Origin: Melieria omissa
Taxonomy: Eukaryota > Arthropoda > Insecta > Diptera > Ulidiidae
Assembly: GCA_963971225.1 (NCBI GenBank)
Contig: OZ020269.1
Location: 36,229,264-36,293,263, forward strand
Length of the DNA stretch: 64,000 nt
Direction of reading: 5' to 3'
Below are positions 777 to 62,140 of this stretch, one piece after another. The first letter of the stretch is position 1. Each line of letters begins with the position of its first letter. The translations under genes were made by a program, and so were the position numbers. The notes beneath the pieces are model-generated. The model saw only the letters and a list, made by a program, of their open reading frames with translations, made no database searches and had not been told where the DNA came from.

Positions 777-2781
777 CTAATTGGTTCGGGGCACAAATTT
801 CATCCAGAAAAGTTCTTTGGGCATCATTTGCACTCCTCGTATTGAGTTCGTCAGGTCTTTGCTCGTTTTTGCGGCCGGGAGGATCCTAAACTTCAGCAGT
901 ATGTGGTACAAAAGGGTCTTTGCTTCCATTAACGCCAGACGGTTGCCTGTTATAATGCAGAGAACAGCAACAACATAGCAAAATTGTTCTTAGTGTCAGA
1001 GGTAGTAATTACGAACCAATGCAACTTCTGGGCCCCACCCCGAACGGCATGTAACTCATTGGCCTTATTTCTTCCTTGCGCTCAGCGGAAAAACGCTCGG
1101 GATCGAACTGTTCCGGGTTAGGAAAATAGTTGGGATCGCGATGTATAGCGATAGTGGGCACCATCACCATTTCGCCCTTTTTGATTTCCACCACAAAATT
1201 GCCGGCGCCATCAGTCAGCTCGTAGTCGGCCGCGCACATCCGGTCCGTGGCTATTGCGGGTGGCCACTTTCGCAGTGACTCGGACAGCACCATGTCCATG
1301 TACGACATGCCCATGACGGTTTCGTACTGCAACGGTTTGCCGGCACGCTTTTTCTCCGTTTCCACAATCTCCTCGTACAGCCGATCCTGCACGACGGGGT
1401 TCTCCAGCAACTCGTGCGCAGTGAAACACAAGCACGTGGCCACCGACTCGAAACCAGCTATAAAGAAGATCAAGCACTGAGCCAGCAGGTCGTCGTCGTT
1501 ATACTCTGCGTGGAAGCCGTCAGTGTCCGATTGCTTTGACTCGTCGAAGTGGCGCTTGGCTTCCATCAGAAGTTGTATCATATCCGGACGGACGATGTTG
1601 TTTTCCCGGCGAATCTTCATGGCGTCAAACACCAAATGGCGGAAGTAATTGCTTTTCTTCTCACCCAGCATTGAAATGCGGAATGCCTGCCAGAGAATAC
1701 TTAAAAGATTAGTTTATCGCCGAAAGTATTGCAACGCCGTTGCACTACGATGCAAGTAGGCGGTGACTCACTTTCATTATTTTGGGAATGATAACGATCA
1801 GCATCATTTTCAGCAGCATCGAAAACTGGAATTGTGTAAACGACTTGCCGATGGTGTAGAACTCGTTCTTCTTGTTTGTAAATGAGTTGACCCTGATGCC
1901 GAAGGCTGTTGAAGCGATGGCGTCGTTGGTGAATCGCGTGAAATAGTCCTTCATCTCCAGCTCCAGCTCGGCTTTGTCAGAGGTTTTCAGCTCGCTCTCC
2001 AAGTAAGCCACGCCCTCGATGCAGCACTCGTTGACCAGCTCAAACATAAGTCGCAACTTACTGCCCGTGAAGGATGGCGACAATGTCTGGCGCATCTCCT
2101 TCCACTTGCGATCTTGTAAGACAATCAGGCTCTTGGCCATTATGTCGTGGCTCATGTCATTGAGAGCCGTTCTATGGTTGGAGAAAATGTCAAAGTCCTT
2201 GATGAAAATAGTTTTGATGCACTCCAAGTCTCGCACTAGAAAGATGGGATCCCGCATGCTATAGCTCCCATAGACTTTGCTACACGGAACAAAAAAGGGC
2301 TTAGTAACCTTTAAACGTTTAACGATATGGCAGAACGTAAATTATGAAACGTATTTGTTGATGGATATAAATTGTCGATATCGATATCAAGTCTGTTTAG
2401 AAAGCAGCACTTTTTCGTTGTTTTTAAAGTGTAACAGATAAGGTGGAACCCTAAAACTGTGATTATAAACAGAACAAGTGTATTACGTTGATATCTCTGA
2501 AAAAATGACCTCATCGTTCAAAAAACCTTGGGGATTGTCTCCAAGGTAGCTTTTTACAAGATTTCAACTAACCTGTTGTGAAAGTTCCGGTATTGGTTGA
2601 TGGTTGAGAGCATAATTGAGGACTTTCCGAAAATCACACCCAACTCTATATTGCCGATGCACGGATATGGTTTGTCATGAGGTACACCTCGTTGGCGCAG
2701 TACGTCGTATTTTGCCACCGACCACCGGTAGAGCACAAACAACAGCCCCGCTGTCACGGCCAGCCATTCAATATAGCCCAT
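777..2781 (-). CDS. Cytochrome P450, CYP9 family, Cyp9f-like
   Basis: Haem-thiolate monooxygenase, expected to be anchored in the ER by its N-terminus and to oxidise lipophilic substrates or xenobiotics with NADPH-P450 reductase. Four exons: 2781-2573, 2279-1772, 1686-1017 and 946-777. They join in phases 2, 0 and 1 at GT-AG borders to give about 518 residues, normal for the family. Seen in order: hydrophobic N-terminal anchor (MGYIEWLAV...), WKEMR (helix C), AGFES (I helix), ESLRK (ExxR), PERF, and the haem loop FGVGPRSCIG, whose last Gly codon is split by intron 3. I chose ATG 2781 over an in-frame ATG at 2823 because the two neighbouring P450s begin at the equivalent position (MAYVE, MALIE). 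From memory, the C-terminal KELFW block is Cyp9f-like rather than Cyp9b-like. The donor of intron 3 is the weak GTTCGT. No disabling mutation was seen. Confidence 0.93.
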
Positions 2782-7577: not shown

Positions 7578-9460
7578 ATGTATCCGCAAAGTGCTGTAAT
7601 TGAAGAAGAGCGAATGCTGAAAGCTCTAGAAAGAGATTCAGATATTGAAAATGACTACAACGATGACGATACGGTAGACATTGCAGTGGAAGGTGTACGA
7701 TGTCCTGAATCGTGTATTATTCAAAGAGAGCCAGGAGATGAGGAGAATGAGACCAACGCTGATGATAATGAGGAGCTAGAACTGGAAGAAGTATCCGTCG
7801 AAAATTTAGAAATTCCCACATTGCTCTTCACAAAAAGAAAGAAATAAAGTGGACAACAAGACTTTCACGGGAAACTATGCAAGAAGAAGTTTTTAATGCA
7901 ATGAAGTATTTGTACGACGATTTTTTTATTAAAGCTTCATATTTCACAAACGTTTACGCTATAAAGGGTCTAGTTTCCCTTTAATCTATTTTATTGTAGT
8001 TTCTAACATTTGTTTTCATTTTATTTGTTTAGGACATACAACTTTTAAATCACGTACAGTGAATGAAATTCGCGTCTTCTTTGCTCAACATATTATGATG
8101 AGTTGCTATAAGTTACAAAGAGTTCGTATGTACTTTTATAGGCGTTGGGGTATGCCATTCAATCACTATGACACTCAATCACTTTTTTTCTTTGAGGCAA
8201 CATTTGCATATTACTGACAATATGGCTCGACCAAGCGGGTGCACAGATCGACTCTATAAAGTGAGATTATAATTTCAAAAATAAAAAGTCGCCTACACCA
8301 ATTACCATTAGAAGAAAACCTTTGCGTCGACGAACAGATTATACCATTCAAAGGCAAGTTCGTGGCAAAACAATATGTCAAGGGAAAACCTTGCCCATGG
8401 GGTATTAAAGTTTTCTTTCTTTGTGGTAAAAGTGGTATGCCTTTTTATTTTGTTGTGTACCAAGGCTCCACCACTCCATTGAATCTGGCGCTGAGAAAAT
8501 CAATTGGCAGTGGATCGGCAATTGTGCTCGAACTAGCAAAACGAATCCCAGCTGAAACAAAAGGACTATCACTATTTTTTGATAATTACTTTCCCTCCTT
8601 TCAATTGTTCGAAATACTTCATTACAGAGGTATCAAGACTGTCGGAACTGTCCGATCGAACCGTTATGCAAACCCGCTAGTGCCAGACAATAAAACAATG
8701 GCTAGGCGAGGACGAGGATCATCTGCACAATGCTTTAGTGAAAATGGAAAAGTAATTTTTACAAGGTGGTATGACAATAAAGTTGTAAATCTTGCTTCAA
8801 ACTTCGTAGGAATTGGTGAGGAAGATAAAGCGCACCGATGGGACAAAAACTTGAAGGAGTACATTGAAGTTTGTCGACCAGAAGTTGTACGCCTTTATAA
8901 CGAAAGCATGGGGGGTAGATCTTTTAGATCAAATGATTCCATATTATCGTATCAATATTCGCACTAATAAGTGGACCGTGCGTATTATCATGCACTTTGC
9001 TGACTTAGCATTAACTGCAGCTTGGATGGAATACCGGAATGACTGTATGTCAAATGCAATACCGAAAAAACAAATTATAGATTCCTTGCATTTTCACGCT
9101 GAAGAGGCGAATAGCCTAATCCAAGTTCAAAAGATAAACACACAACCAGATAGATCCAATCCAGACTCTGAAGCCCCGACAACTTCACATGTATTTGAGG
9201 ACTATAATCATTCTAGTGAAGAGGATATCTGTTTGCCATCTCCACCTGTAAAACGTAAGCGATCAGTGCAAAAGGCCCCACCTGAGGAGATGCGCAAGGA
9301 CTAGATTTTACACATTCCTGTTTTTGTACAAGAAAAGAATTCTAGGCGTTTTAAAATGACGGGATGTACGGGAAAATCATTCTTTATGTGCCAAAAATGC
9401 AATGTGTATTTATGTGTGAAGCGTAATAAGAACTGTTTCGCCGAATATTATGAAAGTTAA
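7578..9460 (+). pseudogene. piggyBac transposase, inactivated
   Basis: The acidic N-terminal segment (7578-7847; many Glu and Asp) is followed by decayed sequence with stops and frameshifts (7848-8300). A well-preserved DDE core then begins around LCVDEQIIPFKG, which holds the first catalytic Asp, upstream of the frame at 8362. The core continues through FFDNYFPS (second Asp) and GVDLLDQM (third and fourth Asp). One extra G in a run of G near 8911 shifts the frame between YNESMGG and VDLLDQM. An in-frame TAG at 9302-9304 then separates the core from the C-terminal Cys-rich finger (CTGKSFFMCQKCNVYLCVKR), which ends at 9460. All four catalytic Asp codons survive, so inactivation may be recent for the 3' half but is older at the N-terminal half. 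Assembly error in the G run cannot be excluded. Confidence 0.9.
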
Positions 9461-12279: not shown

Positions 12280-14327
12280 TCATGCTTCTCTTCGCTTGAC
12301 CAACTTGAGCCAGAAGCCGCTTTTAGGCGCCACTTGAAAACCTCTCAGGTCGTCCAGCAGGTTTCCGCAAGTTTTCGCAGAGCGTTCCAAGCGGAACTCC
12401 ATCAACAAATGGTAAAGCATGGCTTTGGCCTGCATGAAGGCATACCGATTACCTGCGCGAGAGCAAATTTTTACCATTAAAAATATAACGTTTAAATTGC
12501 AGGATTGTGTTGATCATGGTGGCCATTGACCAGTTTCTTACCGATGCATATTCTTGGGCCTATGCCAAAGGGTGAATATGTAAAGGGCTTAATTTTGTGC
12601 TTATTCTCTTCGCTAAAGCGCTCTGGCTCAAACACTTCGGGCTGTTCAAAGTACTGTTCGTCCCAGTGCAACCCGATGGCCTGGAACCAGACGCGATCGC
12701 CCTTCTTAAACTCGCACACAACATCACCGTTGGTGTCCCTGGCCGTGTAGTCGTTACCACACTCGCGGTCGATCATGGCCGCCAACGACCACTTGCGCAA
12801 GGACTCCGAAATCACCATGTCCAGGTATTTCATTTTTTGTAAGGTGTCGTAGTCCAGCAACTTGCCGTCGAGCTTCCGGTGCGTGTCTATAATTTCGTTG
12901 TAAAGTTTCTCCTGCACAGCAGGGTTCTCCATGAGCTCGTGACACGTGGTGCACAGCAGATTGGCGTTGTTTTCAAAAGCGGCGAAGAAGAAAATGAAAC
13001 ACTGCGCCACAATGTCTTCCTCGGACCAGTTATGCTCGGACTCCTTTCGCGCCTCCATCAGCAGTTGAATCATGTCCGGCCGAACGATGTTGTGTTGCTC
13101 GCGGTATTTCATGGTGTCGACGACGAGGCGCACAAAGTAAATCGTGTTGTCTGCATCAAACAGCTTCAGGCCGAGCAGCTGAAAGTGCGAGAGGAAATAA
13201 CGTGGAAAATATTTGCAGTTTCCTCTCCGCATTTACATACTTCGAACAGCCTCGGCGCCAGGCTGTATAGCATAAAATTGACCGCTTGCCGGCCTCGTGT
13301 CCGAGAAAATGACTGTCCAATACTGAAAAACTCGTTGTCCTTATTTTCGAAGGAGTTGATTTTTATGCCGAACGCTGTGGTAGCAATTAGGTCGTTGGAC
13401 AGACGAGTAAAGCAGTCCTTCAATTCCGTGTCGAAACTGTCGTTCCCGTTCAATTGCTGCCGTAAATGCTTCATCGTCCCGGCGAAGCACTCGTTCATAA
13501 GCGTGAACATGGCGCGCATCTTGGCGCCAGTGAAAATGGGCGACACCGTGCTGCGCATGTTGCGCCAGCGCTGACCCTTCATCACGGTCAACATTCCGTT
13601 GAGAAGAGGTTCTGACTCGGTGTTGAACATGCGCTGGTGGTTGGCGAACGTCTCAAAGTCCTTGATGCCCATTTGCTTAATCAGGTCTGGATCGTTGACA
13701 ATAAAGAAAGGCGTACGGAAATTGTAGAAACCGACGACTTTGCTGCAAAGACAGCCAAATACATACAATGGCAGTCACTATATAAAATTAAATATAAAGT
13801 CAAAACGTAATATTTATTAGGGTATATTGTTACACAAAATATTGAAATGATGTTGTCAAGGTGTAGCACCGATAGTGAAATTTTCTATAAATCTTTAACA
13901 CCGTATCACCGTGGCTGTCGTGTTGTTCCAAAAAGATATAAAAGTAAAAGTACTTCTGAATAGTTTTGGAGAAACATGTATGGCGCCTATTTGCTAAAGA
14001 GCAGCTTTTGCTCGCTCTGCTTTCACTCTCAAGCCCAACTTTTTTATCAGCACTATGTCGACAAGTAATACGTAAATGCAGACCTAAACATATGTTCTAT
14101 ATCTAAAGAACCGGTACTCACTGTTGTTTTGTATCTCTGTAAAGTTTCATCATAATTTTGTGCAGTGATTTCTCGTTCCTTATAAACGGTGCCGCGTTAC
14201 CGATCAGTGGAAAAGGTTTTTCGTGCGGTATACCGCGTTCGTCGAAGGTTTTGAATGTATTCGTTGACCATTTGTAGATAATATAGATAAGCACCAAGGA
14301 AAATATTAAGATTTCAACGTACGCCAT
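12280..14327 (-). CDS. Cytochrome P450, CYP9 family, Cyp9b-like (copy A)
   Basis: Membrane-anchored haem monooxygenase. Four exons: 14327-14122, 13742-13241, 13178-12542 and 12452-12280. All have GT-AG borders (donors GTGAGT, GTATGT, GTAAGA) and phases 2, 0, 1, giving 505 residues. Motifs in order: N-terminal anchor MAYVEILIFSLVLIYIIYKW, WRNMR (helix C), AAFENN (I helix), ESLRKW (ExxR), PERF, haem loop FGIGPRICIG. The I helix lacks the canonical Thr after the acidic residue. I recall the same AAFENN pattern in Drosophila Cyp9b proteins, so this is a subfamily trait rather than damage. Exons 1-3 have exactly the same lengths as those of the gene at 20149-21914, which marks tandem duplication. 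An in-frame ATG at 14333 would add two residues. I prefer 14327 by alignment with the paralogue. The frame is intact. Confidence 0.95.
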
Positions 14328-16218: not shown

Positions 16219-16696
16219 GTAATATCACAGAACAAACAATATACAGAATGCGCATCTGGTGTAAAGAAAATTTTCTTCGCGGGTTCCAGCGGTACGACCC
16301 GTTTGTGGATGCGGGGGGAAGCAGTAAAGGGGATGAGAACGCACAGAGCGCGAGAGCGTAAAAAGAGAAGCTGTGAGAGCGCAAAATGAAATGTTCGGAG
16401 AGCAAACAGATAAAAGTATTAATCGCATGCCGGTGTACCAAACAGTAACGCACCATATATGTATGTGGTTGTTGTTGTTGGCCAACAAAGCGATGTGCCG
16501 CATGCATTGTGATGGAGGAAATGAAAGTCGACAGCCTGTGGTTGTTGTTGCCGCTGGCTAACAACTGAAGTTAGAATATATTTTTGCTTTGGCTGATTTC
16601 TGTAACGAGTTCAGCAATTCACAATACTACGATAAAAAAACCCCCAATTGTGGGAATAAGTCAAGGAATAAGTTTGGTCAAAATAACCAGAGTTTA

Positions 16697-19203
16697 TTAC
16701 GTTTTTAGGATTTTGAGTTTTCGGGGTTTAGTTAAATTTTTCTTTTCGGAGGCACATGCACAATGCTTCCTGAGAAGAACTAAGATCATAAAGTCCAAAA
16801 TTGTGTTTTTATGATCAGGACACGTGGAAAACCATTGTGGTGTAGCATTTTGGCATTTAACTTTTATTACATTTTTTATGCCTACAATTTGTGGCTGTTT
16901 TTCAAAAATGCTGCGGAAAATTGAAATGTGTACTTTGCTTATCTCTAATAGAATTTGCGATGGACTAATAAGGTTGCCGAAATCTTTAAGAGAGTTAAAG
17001 TTTTTGTGAAATATGAAAAGTTCACTAGGAACTGTTAGTACCTCATCTTCTTTTCTCAATTCCGCTGCACATGTTTCACAGTTTATTTTGGTAAGTATTT
17101 TGTAGACAACATAACCCAAAAAATATCTTAAAGACGCTAAATCTATGGTAAATTCGGAACAGTTCTCAAAACTAACATTTAATGTGAAATCGGCAAGGAT
17201 GGCTGTATTATTATCCACTTCAAAATCATCGGTTTGACTAGTTTCAGGAGCTGAGTCGGGATTTAATACGATATTAGAAAGCGTTTCAAACGTAGTATCA
17301 TTTAGTTCTTCACAATTGCTGTGGGAACTTAATTGCACAATTTTTGCGGCCATTAAGCGTGCTAATATATTATTAATATCAGCCACTGATGGATTTATAT
17401 TATTACCACCTTTTTGTCTTAGTATAGAAAACATATTTTCAAGTTTGTCTTGGTTTAACGTCCTTGTCATCAAAAAAAAAATGTCGGATTTTTTCTCAAA
17501 CAGCTCGTCTACTAATAGCAAAACAGCTTTTAGAGTAAGTTTCATCCCATAAAAAAAAATACTTTTTTCTTTTTGTCAACAAATGAGATATCATCCAGGT
17601 ATTTAAGGAAGAACTTTATATACTCATGTGATAAACTGTTAAGTTGAATTGCAGATCTGTAGAAATTTTTGGAATATAACGATCCACTGTTTAGGCAATC
17701 AAATATTTTGTCAATATTTTCTATAAAGCTGGCCGTAGATAAAGCCAATTCTTTAGAGCAACTTTTGAAACCTACAGTTTCAGCAGTTGTCCTAATAGCA
17801 GCTTGAACAGTCCTGCTGAAAATTTGGGTTGCCAGTTTTACTTTCATTTTCTCGAAAGAATTTGGAAAAATGTGTTGGCTGGTTAGTTTAGGACACATTT
17901 TTGTTGTTGACTTAAGTTCCATTTCGAAAAGTTCTTGAACAACCCTAAAACTAGCAATTCCATTTGGTGTAGCTAAGTCGCATTTGAGCCAGCCATTTCT
18001 CAGTGATTTAACAAGGTGCGGGAAATCATATATGCAGAACACTTTTCCATCATTATACATGAAAAAAGGCCTTTCCAAAGTTACACCCATATCCGAAAAG
18101 CACTTCCTATTTGAAGACCCTTGGTCACAAGTTATAACTTTTACTGTGATGCCAAAACTATTGAGAATTTTTAAATTTTCCAGAATTATATTTTTAAAAA
18201 TATTGGCAGAGAGTCCGTTTTTGGAAACAAAGTAATTTAGTACCAATGACCAGTTTGAAAACATTGATTTGACCATAAAAACACATAATTGTTTTACTAT
18301 TTGGCTTGTCCTTTCAACCCCATTTTCTTCATACCCATCCACCAAATCTAATTTAGGATTATATCGTAATTCCTTTCTAATTACCATTTCATCCATTAAT
18401 AGAATCATGTTGTTCTTTTCGCTCTGGGTCAAGTCCAAGCACCGTTTTCTTATGACCTCAAAAGCAGAGTTCTTAAAACCTGGCTGCAGGAACTTTACAG
18501 GGGCCCATCGATTAACAGTCGAGATATGTGGCAAATTTAGATTTAGTTTATTTCTTAAAAATTGATACGTCGATTGCGAGACATAATAAATATTTTGAGC
18601 CAAATCTTTTATATCTTCCGTATATTCTTTAGGACGGGAACTTAGAAGAAGCATACAAAATACTTTTGATTCTTTGCTCACGTTATTATAAGAGTCGATA
18701 CGTTGGAGTACTTCTGACTTTTTTGGTAATTTCTTCTGGTTTTTTATGTTTCTGTATTTTGCCAAAATGTTGTAATATTTCTTCCTGTAAAAATTTACGG
18801 ATTTAGCATATGATGAGCAATTATTGCAATGCCCATCTACGGACTCACTTTTTCGTCTCTTTCTAGTTGAACAATCGGGCTCTGAAAACTCATAAGTTTC
18901 TTCAACATTTTCCAAATTAAATACAGGAACTGCTCCAGATTTTAAATATTTTTTCCCAATGTCAGAACTTGAGAAGTGATTAACGCATATAAATAACGGT
19001 TTGCTGTATTCTTTAGTTTTAATGCTACATTTTTCTCGCCAAATTTGGCCCATAGCTGAGTCATAGGGCGGAAATTTAAACATCTTAAGTTGTTCATCAT
19101 CCCGTCTAGATTTTCGGCAACATGTTATGCAGCATTGAAGCCCTGACTTTATTAAATTTTTACCCACCCGGGGTAATACATTTTTACACGGAGCAGGATC
19201 CAT
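16697..19203 (-). pseudogene. P-element transposase with N-terminal THAP domain, one frameshift
   Basis: Frame 1 (19203-17542, 553 codons) starts MDPAPCKN and carries a C2CH THAP finger (CITCC...W...CVNHF...GAVPVF, residues about 28-95). It then shows the P-type RNase H-like core with catalytic-type Asp in ILLMDEMV and VITCDQGSSNRKCF. Frame 2 (17545-16697, 282 codons) continues with GMKLTLKAVLLLVDELFE and TRTLNQDKLENMFSILRQKG, the conserved C-terminal block of P transposases. The frames meet in a run of T (minus strand, just before 17545). One missing T explains the break, so this could be a real mutation or a homopolymer sequencing error. Otherwise there are no stops over about 835 codons, full length for a P transposase. 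No introns are needed. The start ATG at 19203 is the first in frame. Confidence 0.9.
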
Positions 19204-19282
19204 TTTTCGTATACTAGTAAAGTCAATGAATATGCCAAATCAAAAGTAATATAATAACCAAGGAAAGGATCAACTAACTAAT

Positions 19283-19419
19283 TTGGATCAACCACGTCAA
19301 AACAATTGCAAAAAATTCAAAATTGGAATCAACCACGTCAAAATTTATACAAATAATTTTACTTGGAACTAGCCTCGTAAAAATATTTGTAAAAATTTTT
19401 ATTTTGGATCAACCACGTC
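19283..19419 (+). repeat. Four subterminal direct repeats upstream of the P-like transposase
   Basis: TTGGATCAACCACGTC occurs at 19283-19298 and 19404-19419, with variants at 19323-19339 (extra A) and 19363-19378 (TTGGAACTAGCCTCGT). Spacing is a regular 40-41 bp. The repeats lie between the start codon and the right arm of the element. Possible transposase or repressor binding array (inference). Confidence 0.75.
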
Positions 19420-19908
19420 TAAATATTTGCAAAATTTAATATCAATTAATCTAAGCGCAGCATGAAAAGAAAAACGACCATTCAGCTCGAAGATTCGATT
19501 GATTATGACAAGAAACAAATTTGCCGGTACCTGCTCGCTCTGCGCTTGCTTTTTTACAAACAAGAACAAGAAGCGGACAGGCAAAATTTGCATAAAAGAA
19601 AAAGTGACTGAGCGATCGCTTTGCCAAAACAAGCACCATTTCAATGTGCCCGAGTAAAGCCAAGCTGGCTTGCTGCGGAAAACAACAACATTGCGTGTTG
19701 TTGTCGAAATGAGAATAAAGCAACAATCAATCGAATGAATGCGGGAATGCAAGAGAGCATCGCAAAGCAGCTCTCCGCTCGCATGCGCTTACTCTCTCGG
19801 TTCAATATACATTTTCCTCATTTTTGCTGCTTCCCGCCCGCGTCTAAAATGAAATCGCAAAATTATTTCAGATGCGCCTTCTGTATACTGTTTATTCTGT
19901 GGTAATAT

Positions 19909-20148: not shown

Positions 20149-21914
20149 CTATTTTCGTGGCACAACTTGCATCCAGAAACCACTTTGTGGGTTGACCTGG
20201 AAGCCGCGTATATCATCCATTATATTTTTGACAGTCTTTGGAGAGCGCTCCAGTTTGAATTCAAGCACGAGGTAGTACAACATCGCCTTGGCTTGCATAA
20301 GAGCATAACGGTTTCCTGAGTATTTGGGAGAAAATGTACTGGAAAGTTGTTTACGGGGATCCGAAGCAAGACACTTACCAATGCAAGCACGAGGTCCTAT
20401 ACCGAAGGGAAGGTACGTGCAGGGCTTGATTTTGTTCTTTCTGTCTTCGCTAAACCGTTCAGGGTCGAACATGTCCGGATGCTCAAAGTATTGCTCATCG
20501 AGATGCAGACCAACAATGGGTATCCACACATAATCGCCGGTCTTGAATTCGAACACCAACTTGTCGTCTTCGTCCAGCAATGTATAGTCTTTGGAACATG
20601 TACGATCCGTCATTGCAGCCAAGGACCACTTGCGCAGCGTTTCCGACACCACCATTTCCATATAGTTCATCTTGCCCACTGTGTCGTAGGTTAGCGGAGC
20701 GCCGTCCAATTCCTCCTTGATTTCCTGAGATTCTTCGAAGAGGCGCTCCTGCACGTCAGGATTCTCCATCAGCTCCTGGCACACGGTGCATATGAGGTTG
20801 GCATTGTTCTCGAAAGCAGCAAAGAAGAATATGAAGCACTGCGCCACGAGCTCCTCATCCGACCACTTCTCGCCGGACTCTTTCTGCGCCTCCATCAGCA
20901 GCTGAATCATGTCCGGTCGAATGATATTGTGCTCCTTGCGGTATCGCATAGCGTCCACCACCAGGTGCTTGAAGTAGTCCGTCTTCTTGACATCGAATAT
21001 TTTCCAGCGCATCAGCTGCAAAAGCATAATCGTCAGAAATTCTAGCTAATATAGCCTATAGTCGGTAACAATGGACGATGGAAGTCGCTCGCAAACGCAC
21101 CTTCATCAGCCAGGGAGCTGCACTGGACATGAAGAACTTAACCATTTGTTTGCCCCTGAAATTTGTGATGGATTGCCCTATGCTGTAGAACTCATTGTTG
21201 GCGTTTTGATACGAGTTCACTTTCAGGCCGAAAGCGGTCGAAGCAATGATGTCGTTTGAGAGACGCGTGAACCATTGCTTCAACTCCAGCTCCCATGGTT
21301 GGCCGGCCTTGGTTTTCTCGCGCAGTTTATCCAGACTCTCGTTGAAGCACTCGTTCATGAGGGAGAACATGGAACGCATTTTGGACGCAGTAAAAACGGG
21401 AGTCAGAGTGTTGCGCATATCCTTCCAACGTTGATCCTTCATCACGCTCAACATGCCATTCAGCAATGCGTCCTCTTCAGTCTTGAAGAAGGGCATGTGG
21501 TTGGGGAAAAAATCAAAGTCCTTAATGGTTATTTTTTTAATGCACTCGGGGTCATTCACCACAAAAACAGGGTCTCGAAAGTTGTAGTACCCCACTATTT
21601 TGCTGGCGAAAGAAAAAAAGAGTAGTTCGTATTAATACGTATTTGTGCAGAAATGTGCAGGTAAAACGACTCCGAATATTTAGGATGCATGTATAAATAT
21701 GCGCTTACTGCGCTTTGTTGCGACGATAGAAATTATTAACGTTCTTGAAGAAAGCCTCCTTATTGAGCAATACACTTGCGGCATTGCCCGCGAACGGAAC
21801 TGGCTTCTCGAAGGGGACTCCGCGTTCTTGAAAGGTGTGGTACTTGAGCGTTGCCCATTTGTAGACGATAAAAGCCACCAGCAAGACGAAGAGGGAAATC
21901 TCGATTAGCGCCAT
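20149..21914 (-). CDS. Cytochrome P450, CYP9 family, Cyp9b-like (copy B)
   Basis: Paralogue of the gene at 12280-14327 with the same predicted role. Exons 21914-21709, 21602-21101, 21015-20379 and 20315-20149 give 503 residues. Exons 1-3 are 206, 502 and 637 bases, identical to the paralogue. Motifs: anchor MALIEISLFVLLVAFIVYKW, WKDMR, AAFENN (I helix), ETLRKW, PERF, and FGIGPRACIG, with the last Gly split by intron 3. Intron 3 is only 63 bases (20378-20316; donor GTAAGT, acceptor CTCAG), is divisible by three and has no stop. Unspliced RNA therefore reads through, adding 21 residues right after the haem loop. Alignment with the two neighbours and the strong splice sites show that it is an intron. 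The gene is intact. Confidence 0.95.
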
Positions 21915-28049: not shown

Positions 28050-28249
28050 NNNNNNNNNNNNNNNNNNNNNNNNNNNNNNNNNNNNNNNNNNNNNNNNNNN
28101 NNNNNNNNNNNNNNNNNNNNNNNNNNNNNNNNNNNNNNNNNNNNNNNNNNNNNNNNNNNNNNNNNNNNNNNNNNNNNNNNNNNNNNNNNNNNNNNNNNNN
28201 NNNNNNNNNNNNNNNNNNNNNNNNNNNNNNNNNNNNNNNNNNNNNNNNN
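28050..28249. other. Assembly gap (200 N)
   Basis: Exactly 200 unknown bases, a conventional gap size, so the true distance is not known. It sits just upstream of a possible 5' exon of the host gene. Confidence 0.99.
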
Positions 28250-31600: not shown

Positions 31601-34600
31601 ACGACAACACCAAAAACATTAGCGAATCCCGAATCATCTTCGTTGAAACGTATTCTTTATATTGTATATTCTTTGGTACAACGAAACGAATAGAAACGAG
31701 AACCAGCGAGCGTCGCTTCTCGTTTCTATTCGTATTCGGTGAGTAGCGAATACTGTAAAGCTCGTATTTGGTAATCGAGTACTTTGCAAGTATTCGAAGA
31801 TCAACAGTTTCATCGAATATTTTTATGCGCAGTATGTCACTTTTCCATGTGTATACTTGTAGTGCGGTTGAAGTGGCTTATTAGTTAATACACAAAGTGG
31901 AAATAGAGCGAATATGAATAAAGAGTGTACGTCTACTTGTTTCTGTTCGGAGCTTACTCGTACTCGAAGCGAGCTGTACTCGTATTCATTCGGACTGGTC
32001 CGCAGAGATGAAGTAAAGTATTCTATTCGAAAGCATTTTACTGTTTTCGAATAGCAAAAATGCATACTCGTGGAGGACTCTATTCTGAATGAATTAAGTC
32101 ATTGAAGGTTACACTGAGTTCCGCTGCACCAACACTCTGATAAGTATGGAAGAACTGTTGAATATCAAACCCACCCTAAGCTTGAATACCTTCAAAGATC
32201 CTTTGACACCCCGTTCCCCACACTTGTCGCTACCGATAGTGAATGACTGACACTTGAGTTACTTACAACGGTGCTGTATTCTCCACAAGGAAATAACAGT
32301 GCTGGCCATGCTAAAATAAATAAATAAAATAAATATTGTTTCATAATAAAAAAAATTTAAAAATGTCAAACAATATGATATCGTGAAATATATATCATGA
32401 AATTTGAACGATGTTTCTGCATAACGAAATAAACAACTATTTTGGTACTGTTTAAAATGTAAATTTTAAAGCACCGATTTTAGAAAGGTCTGATTTCAAA
32501 AGATAAATAAGTCAGATTTGGTCAGTATCGACAACCAATTGCCACTTTAAATAACATTAACAGTTTTACTTACATGTAATACCAATTTATGTAGGATCCG
32601 CTGGAGTAAACCCCAATTTCACAATAACGATTAAACAATTTGTTTATTGATAAATCGTCGCTGGAATAAAGAAACAGTCTAAGTGCCACATACACTATTA
32701 TTCGATAATTGCACCATTGGATAGACAATCCTTTAATCTATTAGAAAAATCTTTAGTTTTCTTAAATATCTTTTTGGCTCACCAATTTATTCGCGAAAAA
32801 CGTATTTGTATAATAATAGTGTAAGTACCATAATTGTTTACAAATAGTGTATGGTGCACTTACATTATTTTTAAGTAAATCCCAAAAAAATTCTTAAAAT
32901 AACGTAAAGTATTTTACTTCATTATATTGCTGAAAACTTTTGCAGACAGCTTAAAAATGTGAATAATAAAATAGTGTAACATCGATATACATCAATTCAT
33001 TTTTTTAAATATGCAAACAAAATTTGAAATGAAATAGTGTATCCGTGTTGTACACTATTTTATTTCTTTAAATTTTATCAATTCCTTGAAGCCTTCGAAC
33101 AAACAAAACGGTGTATAAGCGTATACATCATTTCAAATCTTTATATAAATTAATAAAAGAAACAATGGATATTTGGGTTTGCTGGGGCGAGCTGTTGGCT
33201 GCGCCTTTATTCTTTTAGTTCTCACTTAAAACTAAAACCTCCAACCATGGCACAATAAACAAGGTAGTGGCAGGAAGGAGCGAAAAAATTCACGTGTATT
33301 TTGTTAGTGTTTTTGTTCGGTTCATTGTCAAATCGGACGGACGGTTCTCTTGCCAACAGCATTGCCAGCATCGAATAGACCACTTGGTCTATTCGAGAAC
33401 GTAAAAATACACCAATTAACAGCAAAAGTACATAGCTTCTTTGTTTTAATCTGTTGTTTTACAATTAGGGGCAAAAGTGCTAAGTGCTAGTTCGCCGATT
33501 TTGCGTTAATTCATAAAAGTTAACGAAAATTGGAAAAATAATATCCTTTCGTCATTGCAAACATGCTTAAAATTTCACAGAAAAAGAGTTGAGTGGCCAT
33601 GCTGTTCGCCGAATGTAAACAAAGCAGACAAAAATTTCTGACAACCTACCGAACTCTGACGAGAAAAAAATAAAATTCGCTCCTTCCTGCCACTACCTTG
33701 TTTATTGTGCCATGCCTCCAACCAAATAAAATTCTTCCGCAAGCCCTGCTCAGGCCTGCTGACCGCGCACTATCGTGTGTGGCCGTGAACCGTAGTCGGC
33801 TCCGCTGCGACCACCCGAACTCCGCTGATTACGCAGAACGAGCGGAGTATCGGCAGCGATTAAGCGATGTGAAACTGGGAGAGCCGGTAGAAATACATGC
33901 ACAGAATTTCCCCCAAGCTTGATCAGGAACGTAGTTTTTCCTCGATATAAATTTTTAAAACGGGGTTGTTGTTCTAGTTCATTTCAAAATTCCAGTGTTG
34001 CTGGTGTGAGTCATTTTTTGTGACCAAAGAAATTTGTCTTTTTATTTGTATATTTTTGGTGCCATTTCGTAATACGTTTGTATAAAATTGACTAGAAAAA
34101 TATATTATTGCCCAAAGGCGCCAAATTAATCCTTGGGTATGCTTTTAATTTAATTAAGTTAAGATTTTATTAGCTGCATCCAAAAAAACAACCCTGCGGT
34201 CAAACTAGAGCATTTAGCACCAAAAGCATACCTGATCTGATCTGATGGTTAGAGATTCGCTAAATGAAGAAATGCGAAATAAAAAGGACGGCAATTGACC
34301 CGTCATATTCAATGCATTTAGCTTTGTGTTCTTTGGTATATTTTTCATTAATATTTACATAATGAAACCAAAAAAGTTCATGTGTTGGCATTTAATGCAG
34401 AAAATTAATGAGAACATACTTTAAAAAGCAAATAATTGAAAGGAATCCCTAATCCCTAATATCGAGAAAAGAGCAGACACAGTGAAGAGCTGATCACTGC
34501 CAGCACACACGGACTGTGTACGTGAATTGAAAAAAACGCACAAAAATCGGCTTACTCTCCCAGTTTCACATCGCTTTATCGCTGGTATCGGGTTTCGTCA

Positions 34601-40600: not shown

Positions 40601-43600
40601 CTGTACATGTGTATATTGGTATAACCACATAATTTTGCGATTTCATTTCAGACGCGGGCGGGAAGCAACATAGGTAAGGAAAATGTAAAGGGAACCGAGA
40701 GAGTAAGCGCGAATTGATGTACACGCATTTGTGTTTTATTCTCATTTCGACAACAACACGCAATGTTATTGCTTTCCGCAGCAAGCCAGCTTGGGCTTAC
40801 TCGTGCACATTGAAATTGTGGTTGAATTGGCAAAGCGATCGCCAAGGCAAATTCAATAGGTAGTTGCAGCACCAGAACTTGTTAAACTTTTTTCTTTGAT
40901 AATTATAATTGGCACGACATTGTAGCAATAGTTTTCCATTTATTATCACTCTCTTAATGCGCCTTGGTTGTTCCAATATTTTTACACATACATAAATTTA
41001 TTTTTATTGTTGCCAATTTTACTTTATACAACTTCCTTTTTACAAGCAGACCAAATGAACTAATAAAATCCATTGAATTTTGGTTTGTTCCGTAGTGCTA
41101 CCACCTTATTTATGCGCCTTGGCGATCGCTCAATCAATTTTTCTATGCAAACTTTACCAGTCCACTTCTTGTTCTTGTTTGTAAAAAAGCAAGCGGAGCA
41201 AGCACGAACCACCACAAACATGCAAGCGGCACATCAGTTTGTTGCCCAACAACAACAACCACAGTGTGTGGTGCGTCACTGTTTCATACACCTCTCTCAT
41301 AGCTTCTCAGTTTACGCTCTCGCGCTCTGTGCGTTCTCGTCCCCTTTACTGCTTCCCCCCGCATCGACAAACGGGTCCTACCGCTGGAACCCGGAAAGAA
41401 AATTTTCTTTACACCAGATGCGCATTCTGTATATTGTTTGTTCTGTTGTATAACTGTCCCTATCTATTTTCCCTATACCCGTAGAGAGGCGTAATGTCGA
41501 GCTTTTCTTTGAAACAAATTTATGGCAATTTTTTCGGTTTTCTAAGCAAAATGTTCAAGGTACAGTTTTAGTCATACTTACGAGAATGTACATGTTGTAG
41601 ACATACATATTGATACGATGAGAAATTCTGTGCCGCACTGTACAGGAATGCTTTTCTCCGCACGAATGTTTTCCAAGCATACTTTTAGGCATGCACTGTG
41701 AAGTACAGCAAAACTGTTATAAATTCGCTTGGTATAGTCCGATATGGCAAGGATGGTTCTCGAAGAAATGGGCTGTGCGAGAATGGTCGAGCGCTTTCCA
41801 ATTAGAAGTTGCAAGAAACTTCGGCGCGATAAGAAAACTGGTATAAAAGCAGCAGTGTGCAGCGCAATGAGTCGAGTCTGTGTTGAGCAAGCAATGGGGA
41901 AACATGCAATAGTAGTAGTGTAAAGTAGAACAAGTGCAAATTTGTAAATAAAGCCATTGTTAGTTTTGACTACGTTGCGCTGGATAACTGAAGTTGTTTT
42001 ATTTTCAAATACAATCAAAACGAACCGTCGATAACGAACTGTGGAATTTCGTAACATTTGGTGTCAGAAGTGGGATTGTATTACTGAAAGTAAAATAAAA
42101 TTATAAAAACGCAGACATGGTTAAACTGGAGCTGCTGAAGGTTGACCAGCTGAAGAAGGAGCTGGCTGCCTGGAATTTGCCGACTGCTGGCTGAAAGGTG
42201 GAGTTGTAGCTGCGCTTGCGAGAGGCGTGTGAATCACGAGGCATCGATTGGGCTGCACACGAGTTCGGAACGCAGGAACAAGAGGCGTCGGCCAAAGTGG
42301 AGGAATCGCCAGCGGGTGCTGCGTCGATGCAAAGTACGGCTGCAGCGGCTGCGCCACCACAAGCAATGGACATGAGCCAGCTTATGGTTGCAATGAGAGG
42401 CATGTTTCAGGAAACTTCTGCGAAAATTGAGAATGTCAGTCGTGAAAATCGCGAAATGTCGGCGCAAATGACTAAAATGGAAGCGGCGACCCATGAAATA
42501 TTGGATCAGTTGTCAGCGAAACTCGAAAGCGCTAATTGCGAGCTGTCCACCAAGCTCCAGGAAAATTCTGCGCGTTTGGAGCAGAAAGTGGAAGAAATCT
42601 CAAACAAGCTTGATGTGAAGGTGGAGCACCTGGGAGCGCAAGTGGAACACTTAGATAAACGAGTCGACGGCCTGGATGATTCTCTGAACAGACGAGTTGA
42701 CGATTTGGATGATTCCTTGAACAAACGAGTTGACTGTCTGGAGGAGCGGCTTAGAGAGGTACAGCTGCGAGCAAGGGTGCAGTCGGTTGAGGAAAGTTTT
42801 GCCATAGCAGTGCCTACTTATGATGGTACTACGTCGTTCGACACATTCAAACTACAATTCGATATGGCTGCTTTGGAGAGTCAGTGGACCGATGTTAGGA
42901 AAGGTCGGAGACTGATACTGGCTCTAAGAGGTCCTGCGGCTGAGGTAATAAAAACAGTTCCGGAAGGTTTGAGGGGTGATTACGAGACCGCCATAAGGGC
43001 GCTGGCAGCCAGATACAGTGACGAGCACAACAAAATACTGTATTATTGCGAGCTGAAGAACCGTAGACAAAGACCCAATGAGGCGCTCCAGACATATGCA
43101 GCAGACATTGAGCGGCTCGTACAGTTGTGCTACCCGAAATTCGGCGCTGATTATCTCGAGAGGATGAAGATTGAGGCTTTTATTGAAGGTCTTCATGACC
43201 CGGACACACGACGCAGTGCATTGATGATGGGCAAGCCGACATTCCGTGAGACGGTGACAAGCGCATTGACGTATGAGGCGGCCTGGAGGGGAAGTTTTCG
43301 ACATTCATCTGCGGAGATGCATGGAGTCCAATCTGGACGTGTCACGCAAAGCCAGACAGTGAACTCGGAGGCACCAGCGGGGCTGCGGGCAGTATCATCT
43401 CGAGTCAGTTGCTGGCGATGTGGCAAGCAAGGCCACATATCACGGGACTGCCATCTGCGAGAAAAGCGTTCCGGGCAACAGACGTCGCCAAGAAGGGCTG
43501 ACGCTCTGCCACACCATTCGTGCAAAACCGAGTGCAGGCATAACTCGCGAGCCGAAAACGAGGGACAGATTGTGGATGTTAGGTCGGTAAGAGTTCTGCA

Positions 43601-46600
43601 AGAAGAAGATTGGCTTGCGGAAAGGCTACAGAAGGACGGATACGGATCTCGCGAAGATCATCGAAGGCAAAGCGCAGAGATTACGGCCGTCCTGGCAGGA
43701 GATGGCTGATGAGAGCCCGATCACGAAGGCCTACTGGGCCCAGTGGCAAAGTCTACGTCTGCAGGATGGCTGCCTATACCGCGAGTGGGAGAGCAGGGAT
43801 GGCAGGACCAGAAAATCCGTAATAGTGGTCCCGAGAGGCCGAATCGACGATGTCATCGAGGAAAACCATAACGACTCCAGTGGCGGGCACCTAGGCATCG
43901 CAAAAACTGTCGCCAAGATAAGAAGGCGGTTCTATTGGGTAGGATGCCAGGAGTCTGTCGCTGAGTGGATCAGAGGCTGTAGTCGGTGTTCGGCTGCGAA
44001 AGGTCCGAGGAGAAGATCGCGGAGCCGCACTCAACTAGTTAAAAGCAGGTTGACAGCGAGCTATGGTCTACGGGCTAACCCAGAGGGGTTCCAAGAAGGC
44101 AATCTGGTAATGCTTTACAACCCGCAGCGGAGGAAAGCTTTGTCTTCAAAACATCAAACATCATGGGAAGGACCGTACAAAGTCGTGACGAAGATTAATG
44201 ACGGGGTGTACAGAGTTCAACGCTGCATCAACAGAAATGCGAGGTTGAAAGTTGTCCATTTGGAGCGCCTGGCGTCTTACTCAGGCGGAGCCTCGGAGTA
44301 CTTCGGGACGAACAAGTCTAAGTGAGGGGCAGTGATACGATGAGAAATTCTGTGCCGCACTGTACAGGAATGCTTTTCTCCGCACGAATGTTTTCCAAGC
44401 ATACTTTTAGGCATGCACTGTGAAGTACAGCAAAACTGTTATAAATTCGCTTGGTATAGTCCGATATGGCAAGGATGGTTCTCGAAGAAATAGGCTGTGC
44501 AAGAATGGTCGAGCGCTTTCCAATTAGAAGTTGCAAGAAACTTCGGCGCGATAAGAAAACTGGTATAAAAGCAGCAGTGTGCAGCGCAATAAGTCGAGTC
44601 TGTGTTGAGCAAGCAATGGGGAAACATGCAATAGTAGTAGTGTAAAGTAGAACAAGTGCAAATTTGTAAATAAAGCCATTGTTAGTTTTGACTACGTTGC
44701 GCTGGATAACTGAAGTTGTTTTATTTTCAAATACAATCAAAACGAACCGTCGATAACGAACTGTGGAATTTCGTAACAATATTGTTACGAAAATCCAAGT
44801 TCTCTGAGTTCGTTTGGATTGTGTTTGAAAATAAAACTACTTCAATTATTCAGCGCAAACGCAGTCACAAATAATCGCTTTATTTACAAATTTACACTTG
44901 TTCTACTTTACACTACTTCTATTGCATGTTTCCCCATTGCTTGTTCAACACAGACTCCACCCCTTGCGCTTTCACTGCTGCTTTTATACTATCTATCTTA
45001 CTATCTTATCGCGCCGAAGTTTCTTGCACATTGCAGTTGTACTTTCTATCTCGACCATCCTTGCCATATCGGACTATACCAAGCGAATTATACCCAATTT
45101 GCCGTACTTCAAAGTGCATACCTAAAAGTATGCTTGGAAAAGCATTCGTGCATAGAAAAGCATTCAGCACAAAGTGTCTTATCGTTTCAATATGTATGCC
45201 TGGGAGTATGCGACGTGCACTTTCGAATGTGCGGCTATAGTTTTAATTGGCGGTGCTGTTGGTAGCGGTGGTCGGGGGTTGCCGCTATAACTTGGCCAAT
45301 CGCAAACTTTCGCCGATTCTTGAATTTTTACGGACGCAGTTTGTTATGAGAAAACTTTTCGCCCAAGCAGCTGAAGGTGTCGTTGCTAACAACAATTACT
45401 TTGATTAGCGCTGCGCTACAGTGCTTTGTATTGCATGGTGCTTAAGTGTAACAATTTCGTCGCAAGTTTCGAAACAGTTCACCAAAGCTAGAAATACCCC
45501 AGTGTGGCCATAGCTGCAATCTCTGCTTTCCAATGTTAGTAAAATTAAATCTATATATTGGAATTTCAAGCCATTTCTTTTAACGAGTGAATTATCTGAA
45601 ATAAAATTCTATATGAGTGATAGTTGCAATGTTGTTTTGGCACAGAATTTAATGGAATTCGTCCCTTTCGACACCACAACAACTTTTCTTCTGATTTCAA
45701 TGCTGCTTTTATATGGGTGAGGAAAACGTGAACTCTTTATATTAGCTTTGCCATAAAATTCGCTCAAGAGAACTTAACTGCGTCCTAAAATTCCAACAAG
45801 AACTAATAAAAACAATGTCCTTAGCTGTTTTAAGACACATCGTCAAAGCAAATAGTCTGTTTAAATTAATGTTTACTGCACTGAAAACCTGCGCCTATGA
45901 AACCGGTAACGACATCTAGCGGTAAATAGCCGAATATTTATAAACTTCGGAACCGTACCGAATGTCATGTTTACTTCTTCTGTCATATGTCAACAATATT
46001 CAGTTCACAATTTGTCAAGTTTCATTCAACAACGCATTGTTTGACGCTCCGGAAAATGTCGGATTACGTGCCTACAAATTACGATTTGCGGACACAGTTA
46101 ATTTTGTGGCGTGGTGTCATATGGTATGACCTTGTAAAACCTGGTGAAACGGTTAACGGTGAACGTTACCAACAACAATTGGCCGATTTAAACCGTGCTA
46201 TACGCCAAAAACGCCCAGAATATGAAGCCAGGCAACACAAAGTGATTTTCCTCGATGACAACGCACCACCACACCGCACTAGAGCCACCAAAGAATTGGT
46301 TGCATCGTACAACTGGGAAGCTCTTGCTCATGCGGTTTACTCACCAGACTTGGCGCCTTCGGATTATCACATGTTCGCACCGATGGGCCACGCATTAACG
46401 GAACAGCGCTTCAATTCTCACGCAGAAGTCAAAAAATGGATCGATGATTGGTTTCAGGCAAAAGACCAAACATTTTTTTGGCGAGGCATCCATAAATTGC
46501 CTAAGAGATGGGAAAAATGTGTAGCTAGCGATGGCCATTACTTTGAAGAATAAAATTGTAATCATTTCCTCACAATAAACGTGTTTTTTTCAAAAATAAT

Positions 46601-59483: not shown

Positions 59484-62140
59484 TGGACAAACAAAGTAAC
59501 TTGACGATCGCGCTATGGAACGCCAACGGCCTAAGCCAACACATACTTGAAACCCAAAACTTCATCCAGCAAAATAACATTGACATACTACTAGTATCAG
59601 AAACCCACTTTAATGACAAAAGCTACGTCAGCATACCGGGGTACAAAATATTTTACACCAATCATCCTGACAACAGAGCACACGGCGGCACAGCAATCGT
59701 ATTAAGACAAAGCATCATATGTAACGAAATGGAGAATTACAAAATGGACCACAAACAAGCAATGACTATACAAATCAGTGATACACATGGATTATTGACT
59801 GTCTCAGCTGCCTACTGCCCACCAAAGCACAACAATAAAATGACACACCATATTGACTACTTAAAAACACTTGGTAATCGATTCATAGCTGGTGGTGACT
59901 ATAATGCAAAAAATATGCAATGGGGATCCAGATTGACGAACAGCAAAGGAAAAGCATTACTTGACGCCATAAGAGAAGTTAACTGCCAATTCATAAGCAC
60001 AGGGGAACCAAGCTACTGGCCATCTGACATCAAAAAGATACCCGACTTGCTGGACTTCTTCATAACAAAATCGATTAACCTGACCATGCTGACTATTAAA
60101 TCCTGCCTTGAGCTCTCGTCAATCATCTTGACAACGCAAGGATTACTTCAACAAAACTCCAACCGGACACCTTATAATCACCGAACAGACTGGGAAGCAT
60201 TTACACAACTCATGAAAACACACCTCAGCTCGAAGATCTCTCTGAAGACTGCAGACGAGATTGACACAGCCATAGCATTTTTCAACGACACAACTATTAA
60301 CTCAATCAATAGAGCAACACCTTTGCTGACAACCAAAAAATCTGACTACTTCACCACTGACGCAATCAACAAGAAGATAAAATAAAAATGGAAAATAAGG
60401 AAGAGATGGCAGACTACGAGATCACCGGATGACAGGCAGAATTTCAATAGAATAATAAAAGAGTTAAAAGAAATGCTCAAAAAGGAAAAAGATAAGAGGT
60501 TAAGCAAATTTCTAAACAGCATTGACGCCACGAAATCTAGTAATTACTCACTATGGAGAGCTACAAGAAAGATGGCCGGAGCTACTCTACATTCATCACC
60601 GATAAGGACTAATAATGGACAATGGGCTCGAACCTCTTCAGAAAAAGCCGCTATCTTAGCCACACACTTTAAAAATACCTTCGATATTGGCCATGTGAAT
60701 GAGGAAGCGGTATTGACGCAGACAGGAACTAAATATGAAGAAAGGATTAAAAACATAACAGTAATCGAAATCAAGAAACTAATTAAGACGCTTAAAAACA
60801 ACAAGTCTCCTGGGTATGACCTGATCTCTGGAACAATTATTAAACATATGCCTGACGAAGCCGTGATCTATTTAAGAAACATCTTTAACCCTGCTATTAG
60901 ACTTAAATACTTCCCAAGGACGTGGAAACTGGCCGAAATCATTGCAATACCCAAACCTGGTAAGGACGCAACGTACTCAGCTCCCTACAGACCAATCAGT
61001 TTGCTTCCGACTTTATCAAAAATGTTTGAAAAACTCCTTTTTGACCACATTGAGCTCATAATGACAAAAATGAATCTGATTCCCCAACATCAGTTTGGAT
61101 TTAGACGAAAATATTCTACAATTCAACAAGTCCATAGAGTTATTCACAAAATCAATGACGACTTCAACAAAAAACAAGTATGTGCGGCTGTATATCTTGA
61201 CGTAGCTAAAGCCTTTGACAAAGTATGGCATCCGGGTCTACTGCACAAATTTCAATCATGGCTACCATATGACTATTACCTAATACTAAAAAGCTACATA
61301 GAAGATAGAAAATTTTATGTTAAATACAATAACGTATGCTCAGACATCCAACCAATGAACGCGGGAGTACCCCAAGGCAATGTATTAGGACCAACGCTAT
61401 ACCTGCTGTACACAGCTGATTTACCCATTCCTACCTCAGAAAACAGCATGATTGCGACTTTTGCAGACGACACTGTATTGTTGGCATCACACATTGACGC
61501 AAAAATAGTAAAAAGGAACCTACAAACGGAAATGGATAAAACACTAGATTGGTTTAAAAAATGGAACATTCAAATCAACAGCGACAAAACCATTCAGGTT
61601 AACTACACAAACAGAAAGCAGACAATTAAACCAATAAAAATTGGTAATACTGACGCACATACTGACTCAAAGGCGAAATATCTGGGATTTACAATTGACG
61701 CGAAACTAACATGGAAGGACCACATAATGAAGAAACGTAACGAAGTTAAAAATCGATTCCGACAACTCTACTGGCTCTTAGGACCGCAGTCGAACCTGTC
61801 ACTGCACAACAAAGTACTAATATACAAAACGACGATTGTACCAATCTGGACGTATGGGATAGAAATCTGGGGCACTGCCTCCAAAACAAATTTAATAACT
61901 CTGCAAAGACTTCAATCCAAAATTCTTAGGACAATAACCAAAGCTCCATGGTATATACCTAACGACGACACCCACCGGGATTTAACCATCAGAACTGTTT
62001 ACGAGGTAATCCAAAACGCAAGCAGAAGGCACATAAACCGGCTATTGACACACACAAATACGACGATGAGGAATCTCCCAGCACTAGAAGACGGTAGACG
62101 AAGGCTGAAACGCAAAACACCAACAGACCTGGCTAAATGA
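59480..62140 (+). pseudogene. LINE ORF2: endonuclease and reverse transcriptase, with stop and small deletion
   Basis: The APE-type endonuclease is at residues 1-230 with LWNANGLSQH, LVSETHF and GGDYNAKNMQWGS. The expected C-terminal DHSP, which carries the catalytic Asp-His, is missing: LELSS runs straight into IILT, consistent with a 12-base deletion. A TAA at 60383-60385 follows INKKIK. The same frame continues past it (KWKIRKRWQTTRSPDD...) through the reverse transcriptase: RPISLLPTLSKMFEKLL, CAAVYLDVAKAFDKVWH, AGVPQGNVLGPTLY and FADDTVLL. The end is DLAK-stop at 62140. About 886 codons in all, normal length. Inactive because of the endonuclease lesion and the stop. Confidence 0.92.

Follow-up and report, generated by a model that had tools for sequence, protein, structure and literature searches.

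Which branch of the P superfamily does an almost intact transposon in the genome of the fly Melieria omissa belong to, and can this copy still supply its own transposase? The window analysed here is a stretch of 64,000 nucleotides from contig OZ020269.1 (assembly GCA_963971225.1), and the element occupies 3676 bp of it. We conclude that it is very probably a cut-and-paste DNA transposon, nearly complete and probably inserted recently, from the group of P-superfamily elements with short terminal inverted repeats (TIRs), no introns and 7-bp target duplications. It combines a THAP domain and an RNase H domain of the DDE type, carrying a GTP-binding insertion, with TIRs bounded by duplications in the 7–8 bp range of the superfamily.

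Boundaries, ends and copies of the element

The full element and its non-coding features are as follows.

16226..19901 (3676 bp; coding strand minus): complete transposon assigned to the P superfamily, with TIRs and 7-bp duplications flush with its ends
16219..16225: left target-site duplication, GTAATAT, flush with the element end
19902..19908: right target-site duplication, GTAATAT, flush with the element end
16226..16258 (plus strand): left TIR, at the 3' end of the transposase gene; 30/33 positions identical to the right TIR
19869..19901 (minus strand): right TIR, at the 5' end of the transposase gene; 30/33 identical
16308..16328 (plus strand): left candidate subterminal inverted repeat; 86% identical over 22 columns to the right stretch
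19823..19844 (minus strand): right candidate subterminal inverted repeat, pairing with 16308..16328
19283..19434: degenerate 40-bp tandem repeats (3.8 copies) on the 5' side of the transposase start; 72% matches and a score of 125 in Tandem Repeats Finder

The initial annotation had proposed a complete element bounded by GTAATAT duplications and inverted ends, and the boundaries at 16226 and 19901 proved exact. The TIRs are 33 bp long, and inward of them identity drops to 6 of 27 positions. The GTAATAT flanks match perfectly at 7 bp, while duplications of 5, 6, 8, 9 or 10 bp fail flush with the ends. Identity over 7 bp occurred in 134 of 1,000,000 random pairs of places within the window, so two flush 7-bp matches, one at each of the two copies described here, are not due to chance.

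The candidate subterminal pair has a BLAST E value of 0.045, weak when taken alone, and both of its stretches lie in parts retained by the second copy of the element. The tandem repeat stretch at 19283-19434 is absent from that copy. Its motif, GGATCAACCACGTC, occurs three times there at no more than one mismatch, and no occurrence elsewhere in the window has fewer than three mismatches; at up to three mismatches the window holds five matches against 2.56 expected. These are possibly promoter or transposase-binding repeats.

A second copy (copy 2) lies elsewhere in the window.

40626..41447 (minus strand): copy 2, internally deleted and without transposase; 95% identical to the full element over 153 bp at the left end
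40619..40625: target-site duplication of copy 2, GTTATAC
41448..41454: target-site duplication of copy 2, GTTATAC
40843..41121: insertion of 279 bp inside copy 2, with ends CAAGGC/GCCTTG and the 8-bp sequence GCGATCGC on both sides

Elsewhere copy 2 is 75% identical to the full element over 255 columns, 85% over 94 and 83% over 76, and this level of divergence outside the left end implies that the element family is not uniformly young. Only the final GTG of its right TIR is left (40626-40628), and the first base of copy 2 also differs. Its right TIR is missing but its target duplication is perfect, so the deletion probably came after insertion. As had been noticed earlier, the 7-bp duplication recurs here: GTTATAC stands on both sides and matches at 7 bp, with lengths of 5, 6, 8, 9 and 10 bp failing. 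The duplication length is thus 7 bp at 2/2 copies, both in the window. The nested insertion, whose bounds and GCGATCGC duplications were read by eye with the help of alignment breakpoints, looks like a small hAT-type element, judging by its 8-bp duplication.

Scanning the window for paired ends (23-base ends with at most 8 mismatches each, a spacing of 100-6000 bp and a duplication of 6-9 bp) returned one pair, the full element. The scan is blind to copy 2 because the right TIR of that copy is gone. An end-like match at 31653-31675 (3 mismatches) was considered as a further copy and rejected, because no second end that would give a duplication of 6-9 bp lies within 6 kb of it.

Transposase coding capacity and the frame break

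Transposase is encoded on the minus strand, read from the 19901 end, in two open pieces.

17542..19203 (minus strand): transposase piece 1, 553 codons, with THAP domain, P-element helix-turn-helix (HTH), N-terminal part of RNase H and GTP-binding insertion (Pfam PF05485, PF12017, PF21787, PF21788; PDB 6p5a)
16697..17545 (minus strand): transposase piece 2 (282 codons), which contains the C-terminal part of RNase H and the catalytic Glu (NQDKLEN) (PF21789); collinear with relatives
17545..17575 (minus strand): frame break between the pieces, at a homopolymer; the stop-to-stop frames overlap, and relatives run through

Pfam E values are 8.3e-10 for THAP, 1.8e-06 for Tnp_P_element, 5.7e-28 for RNaseH_N, 4.7e-20 for GBD and 8.8e-08 for RNaseH_C. 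The sole solved structure matched by piece 1 is that of P transposase, PDB 6p5a (3.9e-18), and a profile of 11 relatives, built with the window sequence excluded, matched the same structure at 1e-69. The acidic residues of the Drosophila P transposase (DmTNP) whose catalytic roles are described in excerpts of PMC8230255, D230, D303, D339, D444 and E531, have as their counterparts D271, D360, D393 and D502 in piece 1 and E36 in piece 2, a placement obtained by chaining several alignments by eye. Since the catalytic Glu sits in piece 2, piece 1 alone lacks the full catalytic site.

Three protein searches, the second of which scored the 7985 candidates sharing the most words, yielded 65 related proteins (cited here by their P numbers), 13 of them carrying an organism name. 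The stop-to-stop frames of the element are collinear with P0001 (20-539 and 531-818) and P0002 (9-547 and 537-822), relatives of 818 aa and 822 aa that are free of the break in other public assemblies. This collinearity, without intron-sized gaps, indicates one break and leaves no room for introns. Together the two pieces comprise 835 codons with zero internal stops, which suggests that the copy is young. The earlier description of an almost uninterrupted THAP transposase, broken at a single homopolymer, is thus borne out: there are two open pieces with P-type domains, one break lies inside 17545-17575, and the rest is open.

Relative to the first frame the second is shifted to -1, and they join at a run of nine T (T9) in the coding strand. 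This geometry speaks for programmed slippage of a ribosome or RNA polymerase on the homopolymer, which would give both a short product and full transposase. In a quick alignment, four of the 65 rows (P0003, P0006, P0045 and P0048) terminate between P0001 positions 536 and 539. Among them P0003, the closest relative of piece 1, and P0006 stop at the site of the break, and P0045 and P0048 have a common ending and belong to a single species. However, the endings of P0003 and P0006 possibly reflect a contig end or a mutation of their own. Six near relatives that cover the site (P0001, P0002, P0004, P0005, P0064 and P0065) are open through it in one frame, and homopolymers are in general frequent sites of indels and of long-read errors. 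We therefore regard slippage as highly improbable and think it far likelier that the break is an ordinary indel or was introduced during assembly. Were slippage nonetheless real, the short product, lacking the catalytic Glu, would be a possible repressor and full transposase would be rare, so that slippage would substitute for the splicing control of P in an intronless relative.

We hypothesize that the THAP domain of an intact transposase would bind subterminal sites and that the RNase H domain with its GTP-binding insertion would cut both ends, with insertion presumably following at a near-palindromic site such as GTAATAT or GTTATAC with a 7-bp stagger. For Galileo, binding by the THAP domain has been footprinted in vitro (PMC3688188). 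Because the frame break precedes the catalytic Glu, nothing longer than a truncated product would be expected from the full copy, which is probably non-autonomous and could move only with working transposase supplied by another copy.

Relatives and genomic surroundings

The nearest relatives by BLASTP are P0065 (68% identity over 26% of piece 2) and P0003 (65% over 66% of piece 1), followed by P0004 (57%), P0005 (Teleopsis dalmanni LOC119663067; 54%), P0064 (54%, piece 2), P0001 (52%) and P0002 (50%). A tree was built from 31 rows, namely 29 of the 65 proteins, the first window piece and a D. melanogaster P fragment, with P0064 and P0065 left out. The window piece pairs with P0003 (98/96), which fills 42% of the columns, and falls in a clade of six rows (100/99) that otherwise comprises P0001-P0005 and so includes Teleopsis dalmanni. 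P transposase stands outside this clade on a long branch whose placement the program itself marks as unsure, in a tree that leaves 9 of its 28 inner branches open.

No protein among the 65 is named 1360, Hoppel or ProtoP. Published 1360 sequences are given in PMC10990002 as GenBank AF533772 and AY138841. When viral contigs were searched for relatives by protein, 62 stretches fitted the pattern and none was confirmed, and the end sequence of the element had no match among viral contigs; among genome contigs of bacteria and archaea 12 stretches turned up, again with none confirmed. In literature on tephritids and other flies, the element was not described in the titles or abstract openings among the matches listed. 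Coverage of that literature was partial, so we make no claim that the element is unpublished.

Three apparent cytochrome P450 genes lie on the minus strand of the window (1009-2257, 12492-13768 and 20149-21595), recognized by Pfam PF00067 in five scanned pieces, with 1745-2257 outside the scan. Relative to the third gene the element sits ~240 bp past the stop codon, and relative to the visible piece of the second it sits ~2.5 kb upstream. Other mobile sequences are present as well. A frame at 8362-8967 carries DDE_Tnp_1_7 (PF13843), which we take to be piggyBac-type; a mariner-type Transposase_1 (PF01359) occurs at 45987-46553 and a reverse transcriptase (PF00078) at 60473-62140. Near-identical frames at 41578-42057 and 44318-44779, flanking a zinc-knuckle frame at 42216-43709 (zf-CCHC barely above the cut-off), could represent a retroelement's pair of long terminal repeats. 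A run of 200 N at 28050-28249 marks an assembly gap.

Comparison with known P-superfamily elements

The element resembles Drosophila P in its THAP, HTH and RNase H domains with the GTP-binding insertion, in its match to 6p5a, in its candidate subterminal repeats and in a TIR length about equal to the 31 bp given for P in excerpts of PMC7776569. It is unlike P in having 7-bp rather than 8-bp duplications and in being intronless, where the same source gives three introns for P. That classical P duplicates 8 bp, as the initial annotation stated, agrees with the portions of PMC3276498 available to us, in which 8 is the modal length for P (1,207/1,226 insertions). Excerpts of PMC1562414 and PMC10983969 likewise give 8 bp for P-like elements of Anopheles gambiae, which have two or more introns, and for those of zebrafish.

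Could the element be a classical P with a true 8-bp duplication? Membership in the P superfamily and the rule of 8 bp in Drosophila, Anopheles gambiae and zebrafish speak for this, but 8 bp fails at 2/2 copies, and an intronless gene sits poorly with the three introns of P and the two or more of A. gambiae P. We consider such an identity very unlikely. An extremely unlikely reading, to which we give almost no weight, is that of a domesticated, THAP9-like host gene. A long and almost intact reading frame would suit it, yet the frame is broken, and the TIRs, the duplicated target site and the internally deleted copy elsewhere in the window all mark a mobile element. Somewhat more can be said for a Galileo element whose TIRs have become shorter. 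Galileo duplications are typically 7 bp, with consensus GTANTAC and three 8-bp copies in D. willistoni, according to the accessible text of PMC4168063, and each of the two target sites differs from that consensus at one fixed position. However, the similarity of the TIRs here stops at 33 bp, against 0.3-1.2 kb in Galileo (parts of PMC3688188 and PMC3573991), and we judge this assignment unlikely too.

We thus favour a short-TIR, intronless, 7-bp member of the P superfamily. The element adds to the superfamily a well-bounded and almost intact representative of this kind, with relatives that include a stalk-eyed fly. It also bears on which is older, the elements that lack introns and duplicate 7 bp or P with its introns and 8-bp duplications, a question for which one full copy is not decisive.

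The likeness to Galileo consists of the usual 7-bp duplication and of tandem repeats near one end, which in Galileo lie within the TIRs and here at 19283-19434; the target sites each stand one fixed difference from GTANTAC (n=2). For 1360, table 3 of PMC3276498, as far as that source was available, gives a modal duplication of 7 bp (274/279 insertions), and the D. melanogaster target consensus given there is GTTNAAC, from which GTTATAC differs at one fixed position and GTAATAT at three (n=2). The two sites fit the Galileo consensus at least as well as that of 1360, but a sample of two is too small to choose between them. That a P-like element may duplicate 7 bp is well established: this length is already published for 1360 and usual for Galileo, and meeting it here is unsurprising. 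The initial annotation had placed the element, on this length, nearer the ProtoP/1360 type or in a separate branch; nearness to ProtoP/1360 stands for the architecture, whereas the duplication is no novelty. TIRs of 30-50 bp are general in the P superfamily, Galileo excepted, according to the portion of PMC3688188 at hand, and 1360/Hoppel is described as intronless in excerpts of PMC1431729, including the title of Reiss et al. 2003 cited there. The 7-bp duplication, intronless transposase gene and short TIRs of the element are the architecture of 1360/Hoppel/ProtoP, to which it is likened by architecture and not by sequence.
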